Part shown: positions 6,723 to 23,184 of the stretch, in pieces | How the letters are laid out: each line of letters begins with the position of its first letter | How positions within the stretch are numbered: the stretch's first letter is position 1 | DNA from: Oscillospiraceae bacterium | Lineage (GTDB): Bacteria; Bacillota; Clostridia; Oscillospirales; CAG-272 | Assembly: GCA_015063855.1 (NCBI GenBank) | Contig: SVTI01000012.1 | Span: 1-40,256, forward strand | DNA length: 40,256 nucleotides | Direction of reading: 5' to 3' | Position numbers and translations under genes: made by a program | Notes under the pieces: generated by a model | Seen by the model: only the letters and a program-made list of their open reading frames with translations | What the model was told of the DNA's origin: nothing | Database searches by the model: none

Positions 6723-7790
6723 ATGTCATTATATAATAAACCTATCATCGACGGACATCTTCATGTTTACACCAACAAGTGTGTAGAGTACTTCTTTGAA
6801 TATAAAGAAAAATACGGCTTTGATGCTATATGTGTAGCCTGCCTTAATAACCTTGATATGACAATGGAGAATGATGCTACACAGAACATCCTTGCAGCGA
6901 TAATGAAGTGTATGGATCCCAAGGGTGTGTATGCTCTCGGCGGTCTGGTATATCCTAAGTTTCCTGTTACCGAGGCGCCCGAAGGCTATTATGACTTTGA
7001 GGCTCAGGCAAGAGAGCTTATCGAGATGGGCTTTGACGGTATCAAGATGCTTGAGAATAAGCCCACTACCCGTAAGATGACCGCACTTTCTACCTGTGAC
7101 CCCATGCTTGACGGCTTCTATAAGTATCTTGAGGATGATCAGGTAGCAGTTATCTCCCATGTAGCCGATCCCGAGACATTCTGGGATTATGATCTTGCCC
7201 CCGAGTTTTCTCATATCGAGGGCTGGTTCTACGGTGACGGAACATTCCTTACCAAGGAGGCTATCTACGAGGAGGTTAGACAGACCCTTACCAAGTTCCC
7301 GAATCTTAAGATAACATTCCCCCATTTCTTCTTCCTCTCGGATCACCTTGACGAAGCGAAAAAGCTCTTTGATAAATATCCCAATCTTAAGCTTGATATT
7401 ACCCCCGGTAGAGAAATGTACGATAACTTCACCCGTCACCATGAAAAGTCAAAGGAGATATTCAACGAATACAGTAACCGCATCATCCTTGGTACAGATA
7501 TGACCTCCACCCATTTTCAGGGTGAGCCCGGAGATATGATCAATACTATTACCCGTTTCCTCTCTACTGAGGACGAGTTCTCTTACTGGGATTTCGATAT
7601 TAAGGGTATAGGTTTAAGTGAAGAGAAGTGCAAGCAGATATGTCACGATAATTTCCTTTCCAATCTCTCCGATGAGCCCAAGCCTATAAATAAGACTATG
7701 CTCAAGGCTTATATCGACCGTTTCCTTCCTCTTGTCAAGAACAAGGAAACAGCGGCATTTATCGCTGATTTTTATAAGAATAATTTGTAA
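6723..7790 (+). CDS. Amidohydrolase-family (TIM-barrel) metal-dependent hydrolase
   Basis: 355 residues, cytoplasmic. It has the metal-site pattern of the amidohydrolase superfamily (Amidohydro_2-like branch): DGHLHV with His12 and His14, His146 in VISHVADPE, His201 in ITFPHFFF, and Asp259 in ILGTDM. The substrate cannot be inferred; related enzymes include decarboxylases and hydrolases. It starts 10 bases after the dehydratase stop with GAGG upstream, so the two genes are probably co-transcribed, which might hint at a role in sugar or envelope metabolism, but that is speculative. A bidirectional terminator follows. Confidence 0.8.
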   Translation: MSLYNKPIIDGHLHVYTNKCVEYFFEYKEKYGFDAICVACLNNLDMTMENDATQNILAAIMKCMDPKGVYALGGLVYPKFPVTEAPEGYYDFEAQARELIEMGFDGIKMLENKPTTRKMTALSTCDPMLDGFYKYLEDDQVAVISHVADPETFWDYDLAPEFSHIEGWFYGDGTFLTKEAIYEEVRQTLTKFPNLKITFPHFFFLSDHLDEAKKLFDKYPNLKLDITPGREMYDNFTRHHEKSKEIFNEYSNRIILGTDMTSTHFQGEPGDMINTITRFLSTEDEFSYWDFDIKGIGLSEEKCKQICHDNFLSNLSDEPKPINKTMLKAYIDRFLPLVKNKETAAFIADFYKNNL

Positions 7791-7825: not shown

Positions 7826-8434
7826 TTAATGTATCTTATTGAGCAATTTATGTATATGCTTGTAGAGAAGAAAGGTTATTACCGAAACTGCCAGACCCTT
7901 GACGAAGTTGAAAGGTACAACACAAAATGCCGCAAGCTCGGGAACGGAATCAATAATAGGGAATATCTCGTGGCCCATGGCAACTATTGCATTAAGGGGA
8001 AGTCCGTAAAACCTTGAAAAGAAGGGGATAAGGAAGTACGCGTTGAGAAAAAACGCTATCAAGGACATAAATATCGTACCGCAAAGCATTGATACCAGTG
8101 CACCCGATTTGGAACGGTATTTTTTGTATATTAGCCCCGCAGGTACTACAAGTGCACAGCCTACGAGAAAGTTGGCTATTTCACCCACAAAGGCGGTGGA
8201 AGTTCCGGTTATGACAAGGTTGAGTACGACCTTGATAAGCTCGGTCAGTATACCTGCTATCGGTCCCATCGAAAAAGCTCCGATCAGAACGGGTATCTCG
8301 CTGAAATCCATTTCGTAAAAGGCGGGAGCGATTATAAGTAACGGAAATTCAAAGATCATAAGAACAGCCGCAACTGCGCCGAGTATCGCGATTCTGGCAA
8401 GGTAAACTATTCTTTTTCTGCTGTTTGTCTGCAT
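7826..8434 (-). CDS. ribU: Riboflavin ECF transporter substrate-binding (S) component
   Basis: 202 residues with about six hydrophobic segments (for example ARIAILGAVAAVLMIFEFPLLI and GALVSMLCGTIFMSLIAFF) and the conserved region EMDFSEIPVLIGAFSMGPIAGILTELIKVVLNL of RibU. It binds riboflavin in the membrane and works with the shared ECF energy module, which is not in this window. The FMN riboswitch upstream is independent evidence for riboflavin as substrate. The ORF track begins at 8470 inside the riboswitch terminator; the ATG at 8434, with AGAGGAA upstream, gives the correct start MQTNSRKR. The basic C-terminus (YKHIHKLLNKIH) is cytoplasmic. Confidence 0.94.
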   Translation of the reverse strand: MQTNSRKRIVYLARIAILGAVAAVLMIFEFPLLIIAPAFYEMDFSEIPVLIGAFSMGPIAGILTELIKVVLNLVITGTSTAFVGEIANFLVGCALVVPAGLIYKKYRSKSGALVSMLCGTIFMSLIAFFLNAYFLIPFFSRFYGLPLNAIVAMGHEIFPIIDSVPELAAFCVVPFNFVKGLAVSVITFLLYKHIHKLLNKIH

Positions 8435-8450
8435 GGCTTTTTCCTCTTTA

Positions 8451-8483
8451 AAACAAAATACCCAAAGCAATCACGCCTTGGGT
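8451..8483 (-). terminator. Riboswitch-controlled terminator before ribU
   Basis: On the minus strand ACCCAAGGC pairs with GCTTTGGGT (9 bp, one G-U) followed by ATTTTGTTTT, located between the FMN aptamer and the ribU start. It suggests control by transcription termination when FMN is bound. Confidence 0.78.
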
Positions 8484-8504
8484 AATAAATACGAACAGTA
8501 TAAT

Positions 8505-8608
8505 GTCTTTTTTCATCCGGACTATACCGTCGGTTACGGAATCACACCGTATCTGCTTTCGCTCGCGGACTTTACCGCCGATAGGGAATTTCACCCTGCC
8601 CCAAAGAC
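8505..8608 (-). promoter_or_regulatory. FMN riboswitch (RFN element)
   Basis: The minus strand contains the near-invariant RFN segments in order: GGGGCAGGGTGAAATTCCC, the CGGCGGTAAAGTCCGCGAGC block, CGGTGTGATTCCG, and ACCGACGGTATAGTCCGGATG, closed by the P1 helix GTCTTT/AAAGAC. It senses flavin mononucleotide and switches off ribU when FMN is plentiful. No other gene is present in 8435-8779. Confidence 0.97.
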
Positions 8609-8629
8609 GTATATTTAGCTTCTTGATAC

Positions 8630-8712: not shown

Positions 8713-8741
8713 TTGCAATTTATCAGATAATATGATATAAT
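8713..8741 (+). promoter_or_regulatory. Sigma-A promoter for the tandem Asn-synthetase-like genes
   Basis: TTGCAA (8713-8718), 17 bases, extended -10 TGATATAAT (8733-8741), about 40 bases before the first gene, which has GGAGGT upstream of its ATG. Confidence 0.82.
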
Positions 8742-8779: not shown

Positions 8780-10297
8780 ATGAAAAACAATATCTGTCTG
8801 AAGATCAATTTAAAGGAATTTTCCAAGCTTGATATCATGTACGGTGAACAGAGAGTGTATCGGGAAGATAATGTTGCTGTCGCTACTCTCGGTAACGTTT
8901 ATTCCCTTGAAGGAAAGAGAATAGATGCAAAGAATGTATACGAGCTCTATAAAGAGCATAGCTCCGATGTAAATACACAGCTCAACGGCGTATATACTGC
9001 ATTTATCTTTGATTTTAATGCCAAGAAGGGTTATGTATTCCAGGACTACATGGGTTTCAATCAGGCTGTTTATTACTATAACGATAACGGTATTCTCTAT
9101 ATTACAAATTCACTCAAGACAATCGTAAGAAATGTCGACAGAAAATGGAAATACAACTACAAAAACGTTGACACCTTTATCAAGGTGGGATTCTGTCCCA
9201 ACAGCGGCACTCTTATTGAGGGAATCAATAAGATCCACGGTAAGCACGCCCTCTTTATTAACGGTGAGAGCGTAAAGCTCAAAAAGATCAAGAGAGTTAA
9301 GGCTAAAAAGGAGACCGTAACCGAAGAGGACTACTTCAATGTAGTTAAGAAGCAGTGTGTCGATTGCGCTCATACCGACAGCCAGGGTTCTACTATCTCC
9401 TCGGGATATGATTCCAACTTTATACTTTATAATCTTACACAGAATTTTGATATGAATATCGATACCTTCTGTATCGGCGGTACCATCGGCAGAAACGAGG
9501 TTCCCGATTCCAAGGAGATATGCGATTATTACGATAATGTAACCTTCCATTCAAAGCTTGTAAACGGTTCAAGCTTCAGTATGCTTCCCGAGATCATCTA
9601 CGTTCTTGAGGGTGCGGTATATGAGGGCGGTATATTCCTTCAGTACGAACTTGCAAAGCTTGTAGCGGCTTCGGGTTGTAAGAATATTATGCTTGGTGAC
9701 TGTGCCGATCAGGTGCTCAACTTCCAGATGTATCACCCTGTATACGAGGCGCGTGATCGCTTTAAATACACATGGAAGATGCTTCCCGGCAGAATATTTA
9801 AGGGACTTCATTTCAGACCCTTCCGTGATGTTTACAGCATGGCATCCTATATCGTGTCAAAGAAGAACGGTATTATGATGAACTATTTTGATGTCAATCC
9901 CGAATATGTATATCTGCGTAAGGATATCTACCGTGTGGCTGAGAACTCCATTCAGATAGGCGAGAGACAGAAGGAATTTCATAAGAAGGTTATTCACAAT
10001 AAACTTCCGAAGGAGGTTCTTGACCATATTAAAAAGGTTCCCGGTGCTACAGAGTTAAAGGAACTCTTTATCGGTGAGGTAACCTTTGAGGAGGTCGAAG
10101 ACTTCTGCCGTAAGAGTGAATTCTACGAGGAAAAGAAATTTGCGGATAAGTTCTACGGTATTGATAACCTCGTTAAGATAGTTTATCTTGAGGTGTTTAA
10201 GAAGATGTTCCTTGAAAATAAAGAAAAGTATCTTACCGATGAATTCGGCGGCTTTGATATAACAGAGATACTTCCCGAGCTCAAGGGTGCGAAATAA
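8780..10297 (+). CDS. Asparagine synthetase-like protein, paralogue A (no glutaminase cysteine)
   Basis: 505 residues. Residues ~35-120 resemble the second half of a class II glutaminase domain (LNGVYTAFIFDFNAKKGYVFQDYMGFNQAVYY...ITNSLKTI), but the N-terminal catalytic Cys2 and its surroundings are missing. From ~200 it resembles the AsnB ATP-pyrophosphatase domain: a PP-loop variant SGYDSN (208-213) in place of SGGLDS, and GDCADQ in place of GEGADE. It therefore probably adenylates a carboxylate and joins it to an amine or ammonia rather than using glutamine, as lactam synthetases and lasso cyclases do; the substrate is unknown. It is about 50% identical by eye to the next gene. No RiPP precursor, leader-binding protein or exporter lies adjacent. 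Cytoplasmic; no signal peptide. Confidence 0.72.
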   Translation: MKNNICLKINLKEFSKLDIMYGEQRVYREDNVAVATLGNVYSLEGKRIDAKNVYELYKEHSSDVNTQLNGVYTAFIFDFNAKKGYVFQDYMGFNQAVYYYNDNGILYITNSLKTIVRNVDRKWKYNYKNVDTFIKVGFCPNSGTLIEGINKIHGKHALFINGESVKLKKIKRVKAKKETVTEEDYFNVVKKQCVDCAHTDSQGSTISSGYDSNFILYNLTQNFDMNIDTFCIGGTIGRNEVPDSKEICDYYDNVTFHSKLVNGSSFSMLPEIIYVLEGAVYEGGIFLQYELAKLVAASGCKNIMLGDCADQVLNFQMYHPVYEARDRFKYTWKMLPGRIFKGLHFRPFRDVYSMASYIVSKKNGIMMNYFDVNPEYVYLRKDIYRVAENSIQIGERQKEFHKKVIHNKLPKEVLDHIKKVPGATELKELFIGEVTFEEVEDFCRKSEFYEEKKFADKFYGIDNLVKIVYLEVFKKMFLENKEKYLTDEFGGFDITEILPELKGAK

Positions 10298-10307
10298 GAG
10301 GCGGATG

Positions 10308-11822
10308 ATGGATAACAATATTTGTATTGTAATTGATTTTAATGACTATAGAGCTGTAAAAGCCCTCAACGGGGAAGAGAAGCTCTATACCAAGGATGAC
10401 GTAGCTGTCGCACTCCTCGGTAACTGCTATGACAGACAGGGCGGCAGACTTACTGCTGAGGGCGTTCATGCTCTTTATCTTGAATGCTCTGAGGATATAA
10501 GCTGCAAGCTTGACGGTATTTATACCGTTATGGTATTTGACTACCGTAAGCATAAGGCCTTTGTATTTCAGGATTTCTTCGGCTCTCAGCAGGCTATATT
10601 CTATTACAGCAACGGTGAGAGGATGTATATCACCAATTCTCTTCGCAATATAGTGACAAGCGAGAAGAGAGAATGGCGCATGAATAAGGAATCGGTAAAG
10701 CAGTTTATCCTTCGTGGATACAGCGCTGACAATAAGAGTCTTATCGAGACTATATACAAGATGCCGGGTAAGGGTTATTTAGCCGTTGACGTAGCAGCAC
10801 GAAGCCATACCATCAAGAAATATAAAAAAGAGCCTAATCCCAAGCGCGAGATAACGAGCGATATCTATAATAAGGTTATCGAAGATCAGGTAAGAGCTTG
10901 TCTGCATGATAAGATGGCTACCACCGTTTCTTCGGGCTATGACTCTAATTTCATTATTCATAATCTTAATAAGATGCTCGATAACCGTATCGACGGCTTC
11001 TGTATCGGCGGTGAGACCGGACAGAATGAAATTCCCGATGCCGAGAAGATCTGTGCATATTACGGTAATATAGATCTTCACACCAAGCGTATCGGCGGTG
11101 CCAGCCTTGATAAGTTCCCCGAGATAGTTTATGCTCTTGAGGGCTCTATGTATGAGAGAGGTATATTCCTTCAGTACGAGCTTGCAAAGTTAGTTCGCGA
11201 GCATGGGGTGGAGAATATTATTCTCGGTGAATCGGCTGACCAGGTACTCAACTTTGAAATGTATCATCCCTGGCATCAGAGAAAGAGTATTTTCGATTAT
11301 AACAGAAAGAATTTCTTCAAAAGATATTTCAAGGGTCTGCATTTCCGTCCCTACCGTACCGTTTATGATATGGCAACGTATATCGTTATTAAGAAGAACG
11401 GTATTATGATGAACTACTTCGGAGTTAATACCGAGTATCCGTATATGCGTAAGGAGTATATGAGGACCTGCGAAAACGCGGTAAAGATCGGAGAGAGAAA
11501 GAAGGAATACCATAAGAAGGTATTCAATGAGACTCTTCCCAAGGAGATTACCGATGTGGTACATAAGATGCCGGGTTCTACTGAGCTTAAGGACCTCTTC
11601 ATCGGTAAGATAAGCTATGAGGCAGTGCTTGAGCTTTGCTATAAGAGTGAGTTCTATAAAAAGAAAAAATTCGGCGATATCTATTATGAAATAGACAACT
11701 ATCTTAAGATAACCTATCTTGAGGTGTTCAAAAAGATGTTCATTGAAGAGCCGGACAAGTATCTTACCGACAGCTTCGGTGACTTTGAGCTTGGTGATCT
11801 TTTCCCCGAATTAATTAAATAG
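10308..11822 (+). CDS. Asparagine synthetase-like protein, paralogue B (no glutaminase cysteine)
   Basis: 504 residues, a tandem paralogue of the preceding gene and collinear with it throughout. It also lacks the glutaminase Cys2. The PP-loop variant is SGYDSN (209-214) and the second ATP-site motif is GESADQ, so it keeps the glutamate of GE(G/S)ADE that is Asp in paralogue A. Shared blocks include FCIGG..G.NE.PD, ERGIFLQYELAKLV, KNGIMMNYF and PG(A/S)TEL. The ATG at 10308, with AGAGG 5 bases upstream and 10 bases after the first stop, aligns with the start of paralogue A; the track start at 10287 overlaps gene A. The two probably arose by duplication and may act on different substrates or as a heteromer. 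A terminator follows, so the pair is a complete two-gene operon. Confidence 0.72.
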   Translation: MDNNICIVIDFNDYRAVKALNGEEKLYTKDDVAVALLGNCYDRQGGRLTAEGVHALYLECSEDISCKLDGIYTVMVFDYRKHKAFVFQDFFGSQQAIFYYSNGERMYITNSLRNIVTSEKREWRMNKESVKQFILRGYSADNKSLIETIYKMPGKGYLAVDVAARSHTIKKYKKEPNPKREITSDIYNKVIEDQVRACLHDKMATTVSSGYDSNFIIHNLNKMLDNRIDGFCIGGETGQNEIPDAEKICAYYGNIDLHTKRIGGASLDKFPEIVYALEGSMYERGIFLQYELAKLVREHGVENIILGESADQVLNFEMYHPWHQRKSIFDYNRKNFFKRYFKGLHFRPYRTVYDMATYIVIKKNGIMMNYFGVNTEYPYMRKEYMRTCENAVKIGERKKEYHKKVFNETLPKEITDVVHKMPGSTELKDLFIGKISYEAVLELCYKSEFYKKKKFGDIYYEIDNYLKITYLEVFKKMFIEEPDKYLTDSFGDFELGDLFPELIK

Positions 11823-11829
11823 TTTTTGA

Positions 11830-11862
11830 AAGCAGAGGGTATTTTATCCTCTGCTTCGTTTA
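11830..11862 (+). terminator. Rho-independent terminator after the Asn-synthetase-like pair
   Basis: AAGCAGAGG pairs with CCTCTGCTT (9 bp), followed by a T-rich tail CGTTTATTT. Confidence 0.8.
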
Positions 11863-20507: not shown

Positions 20508-21818
20508 TCATTCGTTGCGGGCCGGCGCCTGCAACGGCAACGCACAATGAACACAGAACATACCGTTGTCCTCATAGAATTCTATCATGCCGTTGTATTT
20601 TTCAACGGTGTTTTTGATACTCTTGATACCGAAGCCGTGGTTGAGGGTATCCTTCTTTGATGATTTCAAATCGGGATTTTTGGAAAGTACCGATCCGTTG
20701 ATAGTGTTTTTACAGGTGATATTCTGATATTCGCCTTGCATACGAAAGACTATCTCAATTCGTTTTTCGGCGGAGTCTTGCACACCTTCAATAGCGTTGT
20801 TCAGCATATTGCCGAGAAGGGAGGTCAGATCGAGATCATCAATACCTTCAAGGTTATCCAATGCTCCCGATATTTCAAATTTGATATCCTCGTTCTGTGT
20901 CACCTTGGAATCGAGAATGAAGTCAGCCATGCGGTTTCCCGTGTGATAGAAGCGCTTTGTCTTTTCTAATTCGGATTGCTTGTCCGAAATGTATTTATTG
21001 ACCTCGTCATACTTGTGTTCTTCCATCAAACAATTGATATACATAAGATGCTCACGGATATCATGACGTGTAACACGTAAACGGGAATAGACATTTCCAA
21101 GCTCACGGTAACGTTCTTCCTCTAATTCTCGACGGTTGTTTATCAGCTCAAGCTCATGCTTGGCAGAGGCATTATGCATTGATTTTTTGAATAGTATAAG
21201 AACTGTAAAATTACTTATAAACAATACGCATATTACCGTGATAACGGCAACAGAATATCGGCTTATATCATATTCGATTCCAAACATCAGAAAAATGTAA
21301 AGAGTTAATACAGTACCGGCAGGGAAAACCAGATAAAGGAATAAATCGATTAAAGAAAAGCGTTCCCGTATAACAAATATACGGTTTATTATCATGAGGA
21401 CAGATATCATCGCAATTTTGCACAAGAAAATATATATGTATCTATGAAACGATGAAGCGAAGACGATTTCGTCAAATTTGTTGGGTGAAAACAGTGAATA
21501 TACATATAAGATCAGTGTATTTACTATTATCAATGTCAGCATATATATCAACGGGGAGAGAATCTTTGCAACTATTCTTTTATTTTTAATGCTGAATGCG
21601 AAGCCGTAGAGCATCAGTGTCATGATAACCACGTGGTACTCTGAAAAATGTGTATAATGGGTAAAATAGTTTGACAGTGTCAGAATGGATAAAACACTCA
21701 GAACAAAACCGATAATACTTTTCTTGTTATTTACAGATCCGTTATTAAATCGGAATACAAACCATACTCCGGCGAGGGCGTCGATAAAATTTGCTAAGTA
21801 TTCGATAGGATAATTCAT
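20508..21818 (-). CDS. Sensor histidine kinase, AgrC-like with GHKL ATPase domain
   Basis: 436 residues. About six transmembrane helices fill residues 5-215 (for example VVIMTLMLYGFAFSI and AVITVICVLFISNFTVLILF), a coiled segment (HELELINNRRELEEERYREL) follows, then the phospho-acceptor region VTRHDIREHLMYINC with His252, the N box LLGNMLNNAIEG (Asn340/341) and the G box HGFGIKSIKNTVEKYNG. This is the layout of peptide-sensing AgrC/ComD-type kinases. The track start at 21848 overlaps the regulator gene; the ATG at 21818 has AAGGGAGAG upstream and gives a membrane-starting protein. It is co-transcribed with the LytTR regulator. No AgrB/AgrD-like genes are nearby, so the signal is unknown. Confidence 0.9.
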   Translation of the reverse strand: MNYPIEYLANFIDALAGVWFVFRFNNGSVNNKKSIIGFVLSVLSILTLSNYFTHYTHFSEYHVVIMTLMLYGFAFSIKNKRIVAKILSPLIYMLTLIIVNTLILYVYSLFSPNKFDEIVFASSFHRYIYIFLCKIAMISVLMIINRIFVIRERFSLIDLFLYLVFPAGTVLTLYIFLMFGIEYDISRYSVAVITVICVLFISNFTVLILFKKSMHNASAKHELELINNRRELEEERYRELGNVYSRLRVTRHDIREHLMYINCLMEEHKYDEVNKYISDKQSELEKTKRFYHTGNRMADFILDSKVTQNEDIKFEISGALDNLEGIDDLDLTSLLGNMLNNAIEGVQDSAEKRIEIVFRMQGEYQNITCKNTINGSVLSKNPDLKSSKKDTLNHGFGIKSIKNTVEKYNGMIEFYEDNGMFCVHCALPLQAPARNE

Positions 21819-21828
21819 GATCTCTCCC

Positions 21829-22566
21829 TTATTCCGAGAAGCGTTCACGTTCTCTCATAAATTTGATATATTTTGTCTTAAGCTCAGTATAATACTTTTT
21901 GGCTATGGGAAGACACTCCTTGTTTGACATCACTACATGATCCTCACGTATTGAATGGATATGCTTGATATTGATTACCGTTCCCACATTGATACGAATA
22001 AACAGGGAAGGATCGAGATCTGCTATCAATTCCTTAATACCTCGGCGGTCACGGTATTCTTCGTTTATGCATAGAATTTTTATGTAGTTTGTTGCCTTTT
22101 GCTTTTCTATGTATATCACTCTGTGAACCGATATTTGTGTACAATCGTTTCTGTTGATTAGTGTTATGTATTTGTCCGAGGACAGAAGGTTTTTTACTGC
22201 CGAGGTCAATGCCTCCTCAAGCTCATCGTTAAGATTGGTTTTCCTCAGATAACGGAAGGGGTTGAAGCGCAGAGAATAGAATACATATTCCTTGTAATTT
22301 GTAATAAATATGATAAGCGTTTCGGGATGTAGGTCATAGAAGCTCTGGGCAATCTTCATTCCGTCGATTTCAGGCATGCTTATATCAAGGAACAGAATAT
22401 CTATATATGTATTCTCGGCATAGCTGAGAAGTGCTTCGGGAGGATATATGTATTCGCACCTGATGATCATGTCGCAAAAGCTTTCATTCCTTGCAATGAT
22501 CGATTGCATATCACGGATAAGCTTGTCAGCAAAGACTCTGTCGTCATCACAAACTACAATTTTCAC
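21829..22566 (-). CDS. LytTR-family response regulator
   Basis: 245 residues. The receiver domain has the acidic pocket CDDD (7-9), the phosphorylated Asp61 in ILFLDISMPEIDGM and the K in TNYKEY. From ~140 a LytTR DNA-binding domain follows (SDKYITLINRNDCTQISVHRVIYIEKQK...RINVGTVINIKHIHSI), which binds direct repeats upstream of target genes. The start is GTG at 22566 with GGAGGT upstream. It is the first gene of the two-gene operon with the kinase (10-base gap). Targets cannot be assigned. Confidence 0.93.
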   Translation of the reverse strand: MKIVVCDDDRVFADKLIRDMQSIIARNESFCDMIIRCEYIYPPEALLSYAENTYIDILFLDISMPEIDGMKIAQSFYDLHPETLIIFITNYKEYVFYSLRFNPFRYLRKTNLNDELEEALTSAVKNLLSSDKYITLINRNDCTQISVHRVIYIEKQKATNYIKILCINEEYRDRRGIKELIADLDPSLFIRINVGTVINIKHIHSIREDHVVMSNKECLPIAKKYYTELKTKYIKFMRERERFSE

Positions 22567-22952: not shown

Positions 22953-23184
22953 ACCTTCAATGATATTTTTCTTTTAGAAAAATGATATATTTCCAAAGGA
23001 AATATGATATATTGCTGACGCAATATGATATATACCAGAAGGGTATATGAAGGTAAAAAACACTCTGTTGCAGTTGAACAGAGTGTTTTTTAACATATTT
23101 TTGAAGAAAATATATCATAGGCGAAGCCTATATCATACACCAAGGGTGTATATCACAGATTTGCTCTGCAAATCTATATCATTA
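22953..23184. repeat. Array of variable short hairpins joined by ATGATATA/TATATCAT linkers
   Basis: Seven small palindromes of different sequence are separated by a constant linker. Left half, linker ATGATATAT: TTTTTC/GAAAAA, TTTCC-AAA-GGAAA, ATTGC-TGAC-GCAAT, TATACC/GGTATA, the set enclosed by ACCTTCA...TGAAGGT (22953-23054). Then a terminator hairpin, then the right half with the linker inverted (ATATCAT): ATAGGC-GAA-GCCTAT, ATACACC-AAG-GGTGTAT, AGATTTGC-TCT-GCAAATCT. No coding potential. Confidence 0.8.
23055..23091. terminator. Bidirectional terminator inside the hairpin array
   Basis: AAAAAACACTCTGTT pairs perfectly with AACAGAGTGTTTTTT (15 bp, loop GCAGTTG). It can end both the XRE transcript and the convergent dehydrogenase transcript. 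Confidence 0.92.

Follow-up and report, generated by a model that had tools for sequence, protein, structure and literature searches.

Organization of the locus

The window (the whole stretch of DNA that was analysed, 40,256 nucleotides) contains two adjacent forward-strand genes for AsnB-fold synthetases. Copy 1 (asn1, 8780..10297) encodes a protein of 505 aa with the motifs SSGYDSN and GDCADQ, and copy 2 (asn2, 10308..11822) encodes one of 504 aa with SSGYDSN and GESADQ; neither has Cys2. The two proteins are 51% identical. Both match the Asn_synthase model PF00733, with 38.2 and 56.9 bits against a gathering score of 21, which agrees with the two paralogues of about 505 residues described in the first-pass annotation.

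The genes had also been described as a self-contained two-gene operon, and the signals around them fit this description. A candidate promoter (8713..8741, forward strand) consists of TTGCAA and TATAAT separated by 17 nt, with an extended TG, and a strong intrinsic terminator (11830..11856, forward strand) has a 12-bp stem, a 3-nt loop and a T-rich tail. A −35/−10 pair and a ribosome-binding site (RBS) in a like layout were seen by eye before copy 1 in G001 and G005. Copy 2 has its own RBS, AGAGGCGG (10297-10304, forward strand), directly behind the stop of copy 1, followed by in-frame ATGs at 10305 and 10308. These ATGs are preferred as starts over the GTG at 10287 that had been listed, and the one at 10308 gives the protein of 504 aa.

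A gene for an ECF S component (RibU-type riboflavin transporter; 7826-8470, reverse strand) is divergent from the operon and shares an intergenic region with it. It is preceded by an FMN riboswitch (8501-8612, reverse strand, 117 bits), and is therefore taken as a riboflavin transporter gene unrelated to the operon. A functional link between the two was rejected on this ground and because the ECF gene that adjoins lepA in G002-G004 is a different one.

Loss of the glutaminase site and changes in the synthetase site

Alignment with the AsnB of the host and with others showed that the first 40-50 or so residues of the glutaminase domain are absent from both copies, and that the second half of the domain is retained. 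The segments containing Cys2, RHRGPD, RLSI and NGEIYN are deleted, not merely substituted, relative to the intact AsnBs. The two proteins start with MKNNIC and MDNNIC; the lack of Cys2 reported earlier is thus part of the loss of a whole segment. A Cys at position 5/6 is conserved in the members of the genus, where it is not N-terminal, and is missing in more distant members. Of the glutaminase site, neither copy and none of the relatives aligned has the Cys2, the Arg, the NGE or the Asp, and the Pfam model GATase_7 matches both copies only below its cut-off. Because the catalytic half of this N-terminal domain is gone, ammonia is not expected to be drawn from glutamine.

The domain models place the proteins near AsnB. 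PF00733 matches all 10 aligned members of the family, and the S[GS]GxDS motif and the metal Asp of GxxxD, which are expected in this superfamily, are present in both copies. The closest named model is that of the glutamine-hydrolysing asparagine synthase, TIGR01536 (69.5 and 80.7 bits), whose cut-off of 267 is missed. TIGR03108 ranks second among the NCBIfam models for both copies and for the G531 member, at 39-63 bits against a cut-off of 817; it describes AsnB-like amidotransferases that are encoded in EPS loci (XrtA/PEP-CTERM system), but the present family lacks the glutaminase site. A profile of the family recovers E. coli AsnB (1ct9) with 3.9e-12 across both domains. AsnB and the pair are alike in having a two-domain fold, with both domains homologous in sequence, and an ATP pocket formed by SGG.DS, G[ED]xxD and a late Lys. 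They differ in that the pair lacks Cys2, RLSI, NGEIYN and the Gln-binding Asp, and is about 100 aa shorter.

In a fold search with the model of copy 2, the top matches were human ASNS, beta-lactam synthetase, AsnB, TsnB9 and carbapenam synthetase, and most of this likeness lies in the N-terminal domain. In the predicted structure the retained N-terminal part has fair confidence. The prediction rested on six sequences only, and for this reason the synthetase domain stays below a pLDDT of 50. With the PF00733 match, the missing glutaminase residues and the ASNS-type structures at the head of the fold search, the pair is an AsnB-fold protein without glutaminase chemistry, as the first-pass annotation had proposed, and it is real and conserved.

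In AsnB, roles are assigned to a P-loop Ser, the metal Asp residues, Glu348 and a late catalytic Lys. Both copies retain the P-loop Ser and the metal Asp in SSGYDSN, and the second metal Asp in GDCADQ (copy 1) and GESADQ (copy 2). Lys419 is by position what we take to be the catalytic Lys of AsnB, the automatic alignment being gapped there. The P-loop Ser and Asp, the GxxAD Asp and Lys419 are all retained in the family alignment, and both copies are presumably catalytic. The position of Glu348 is occupied by Asp307 in copy 1 and by Glu in copy 2. This difference between GD and GE, which had been pointed out before, is constant in three of three pairs. It could mean that copy 1 is inactive, as Asp sits where AsnB needs Glu348.

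The variant ATP-site motifs that had been listed are all present. However, the Gln that replaces Glu in GxxADQ is not specific to the pair: it also occurs in the nearer single-copy members G002, G019 and G370, and is therefore older than the pair. Only the change from GE to GD is specific to copy 1. AsnB has SxPxY and GEGADE, whereas the family has [IV]FLQY and its near members GxxADQ. This replacement of the AsnB substrate loop is invariant in all 10 aligned members, which suggests that aspartate is not the substrate. The residue just before [IV]FLQY (the Arg of YERG in the YERGIFLQY loop) is Arg in copy 2 and Gly in copy 1. With Asp for Glu and Gly for Arg in copy 1, we infer that the two copies differ in substrate or in the step that they would catalyse.

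Distribution, phylogeny and selection

Six genomes of the genus were compared. The pair is present in three of them, a single copy-2-like gene in one and no member in the other two, both of which are at least 93% complete. Thus three of the four carriers in the genus have the pair, which is found in G001 and G005 as well as in the host, and its conservation in relatives is confirmed. One further genome with a member was found in the family sample (395 genomes) and two more members in the order sample (394 genomes), and a search of one of those members' families added another. The class (391 genomes) and phylum (399 genomes) samples contained no member besides those of the window. The family is rare among the genomes sampled.

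Collections of viruses, phages and plasmids gave no close relative. A phage or plasmid origin was rejected, as the three plasmid matches are weak (22-24% identical) and cluster with ordinary AsnB-type proteins, and a defence system was rejected as there is no PADLOC match.

In the tree the family forms a single group against AsnB with support of 100/100, so that it does not fall within ordinary AsnB. The copy 1 sequences cluster together, as do those of copy 2, and the single gene of G002 joins copy 2 (98/95). It follows that copy 1 was probably lost in G002, or that the duplication predates the split. Long branches leave the deep order within the family unsure. As single-copy members exist (G002, G019, G370, G531 and G1036), the pairing is a lineage-specific duplication and does not define the family.

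The closeness to TIGR01536 and the retained adenylation residues would also suit an ammonia-dependent asparagine synthetase, which would make asparagine from aspartate and free ammonia. Ammonia is plentiful in the gut and rumen, and AsnB mutants without the Cys use free ammonia. Nevertheless, we regard this explanation as improbable. The TIGR01536 scores lie far below the cut-off, the invariant [IV]FLQY loop is unlike SxPxY of AsnB, and the clade is separate from AsnB. In addition, the host genome already holds an intact AsnB elsewhere, beside a folD-like gene, and some relatives lie within EPS loci (see below). If this explanation were true, the pair would be of low interest. As a separate observation, an AsnB gene of Collinsella (L065:2309-4189) is immediately followed by a murE-like gene, a position that would suit a role of some ordinary AsnB proteins in cell-wall amidation.

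The values of dN/dS between orthologues are about 0.05-0.08 for both copies, which are under strong purifying selection. Copy 1 evolves more slowly than copy 2 (dN of 0.07 against 0.16 for the same genome pair). These values bear on the idea that the two proteins work only as a heteromer, with copy 2 (GE) as the catalyst and copy 1 (GD) as a near-pseudoenzyme that has a regulatory or substrate-holding role. It would explain why the GD/GE split is constant in three pairs, why the YERG Arg has become Gly in copy 1 and why the single-copy genome retains the GE type, and the tight spacing of the genes suggests translational coupling. However, conservation is higher in copy 1 than in copy 2, the change from Glu to Asp is mild, and a copy 1 that keeps the P-loop, both metal Asp residues and the Lys would be unusual as a dead partner. 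We consider the heteromer a possible but doubtful arrangement, which is compatible with the explanation that we prefer, an ATP-dependent ligase independent of glutamine.

Gene neighbourhood and possible substrate

The steady neighbours of the genus genes are ribU and an amidohydrolase-like gene, with lepA in two genomes, and no polysaccharide locus is found there. The amidohydrolase-like gene (6723-7790 in the window, forward strand; its Pfam match is just under the cut-off) encodes a protein more than 91% identical between genomes. It lies upstream of the paired copies wherever the contig reaches, in three of three pair loci, and a dTDP-glucose 4,6-dehydratase gene precedes it in two of the three, the contig of the third pair locus starting inside the amidohydrolase gene. 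An O-antigen-ligase-like gene is found upstream in G001 and G005. Downstream of the pair, these genomes have genes for a large secreted protein, for a fusion of a Lit-like membrane domain and a DXP-synthase-like transketolase (841 aa; L005:15591-18116 and L004:11019-13544) and for a DegT aminotransferase.

A link to lepA/hemW was rejected as positional, since the pair is not beside lepA in G001 and G005, and lepA is present in G003 and G004, which lack the pair. In the latter two genomes lepA adjoins an ECF gene with no family member between them, and the family gene is therefore accessory. With the ECF S component and its FMN riboswitch, the amidohydrolase-like gene and lepA as neighbours, no known pathway gene is adjacent, as had been stated.

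The first-pass annotation compared the pair with beta-lactam synthetase and lasso cyclase, and the comparison stands for the AsnB fold without glutaminase. Beta-lactam and carbapenam synthetases (1jgt, 1q15) have the same fold and the same loss of Cys2, show no glutaminase activity and keep the adenylation site. Lasso cyclase (NF033535, McjC type) is likewise an AsnB-like amide-bond former that does not use glutamine. A peptide or natural-product ligase of the lasso cyclase, beta-lactam synthetase or RiPP amidase type would agree with these likenesses, and the G370 relative adjoins three radical SAM/SPASM genes.

However, the comparison fails for the pathway. Beta-lactam and carbapenam synthetases belong to clavam or carbapenem clusters and act on small amino acids, and the pair has no such cluster. 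They also use a Tyr-Glu dyad whose Tyr corresponds to Glu348 of AsnB; at this position the pair has Asp (copy 1) or Glu (copy 2). Lasso systems include a precursor gene and B1/B2 leader protease genes, none of which is near the pair according to the ORF lists and the short-ORF comparison. The same lists and the comparison between loci gave no conserved precursor-like ORF around the operon; most of the short-ORF matches fall within the FMN riboswitch stretch, and the conserved upstream short ORFs were for this reason rejected as a RiPP precursor. Neither the gene lists nor Pfam revealed a leader peptidase, an RRE, a carboxyethylarginine synthase or another pathway gene near the operon. The lasso cyclase model gives only 25.0 and 28.4 bits against a cut-off of 525. 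A role as a peptide or natural-product ligase is thus very improbable in our judgement. PesC, an AsnB-like nitrile synthetase, uses glutamine or ammonia (PMC13060819), and is therefore no close functional match to the pair.

The more distant members point elsewhere. Those of G531 and G1036 each lie within a polysaccharide locus with genes for a PIG-L deacetylase, a sugar transferase, an ATP-grasp protein, glycosyltransferases and a D-glucuronyl C5-epimerase, as assigned by Pfam for the G531 locus only and matched to it by eye for G1036. The G370 member adjoins a U32 peptidase-like gene, with radical SAM genes, a UDP-sugar dehydrogenase gene and a UDP-sugar epimerase/decarboxylase-like gene near it. 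Hence G531 and G1036 are inside glycan loci and G370 partly, and the genus of the window and G019 are outside. These surroundings point weakly to surface polysaccharide and not to peptides as the setting of the relatives. The glycan-linked relatives share only 22-28% identity with copy 2, and their substrate may not be that of the proteins encoded in the window.

Two side observations concern AsnB-like genes without Cys2. An EPS locus with a single AsnB-like gene without Cys2 is conserved in two genomes (L037:4420-16593 and L045:1462-16000), together with PIG-L deacetylase, ATP-grasp, C5-epimerase and pyruvyl-transferase-like genes. At L036:7400-13632 (reverse strand), an AsnB-like gene without Cys2 adjoins a U32 peptidase-like gene and genes for three radical SAM/SPASM proteins, and this could be a separate pathway.

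In the host, an EPS-type locus on another contig has adjacent wecB- and wecC-like genes, so the host probably makes a sugar nucleotide of the uronic-acid type. All genomes of the genus have a sugar dehydrogenase of the wecC-like family, whether they carry the operon or not, and the evidence from the host is therefore not discriminating.

We lean towards the reading that the operon encodes an ATP-dependent carboxylate-amine ligase that is not fed by glutamine, with an acid that may, on weak grounds, be a carboxylate of a surface glycan. The first part, an amide synthetase that uses ATP and not glutamine, is probable from the residues retained and lost. MgATP would be bound in the SSGYDSN/GxxAD pocket, the ligase would adenylate a carboxylate, and an amine or free ammonia would attack the adenylate with release of AMP and PPi. 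The acid is a more tentative matter, and is guessed from the EPS loci of the distant relatives, which include genes for a D-glucuronyl C5-epimerase and a PIG-L deacetylase. On this weak basis a uronic acid of a surface glycan is the likeliest candidate, or else another carboxylate of such a glycan or of its precursor, and an amino compound would amidate it. The fuller proposal is of an undescribed glutamine-independent AsnB-fold family that amidates uronic acids of surface glycans, with the pair, duplicated in one rumen/gut genus, acting at successive or different positions through different active sites; we rate it as unlikely.

Searches of a literature library turned up no AsnB-like ligase from a polysaccharide locus. 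To our knowledge, AsnB-fold amide formers that work without glutamine are few, and the known ones make antibiotics or interlocked peptides. If our proposal is true, AsnB-type amide chemistry without glutamine would be extended to surface polysaccharides, and the pair would offer for study two natural variants that differ in having Glu or Asp as the catalytic residue.

Elsewhere in the window, two Gut-1 RNA matches (22958-23036, forward strand; 23107-23184, reverse strand) are oppositely oriented and separated by about 70 bases. They are located between an SDR-like gene and an Agr-like two-component pair of a GHKL sensor kinase and a LytTR regulator (20508-22566, reverse strand).
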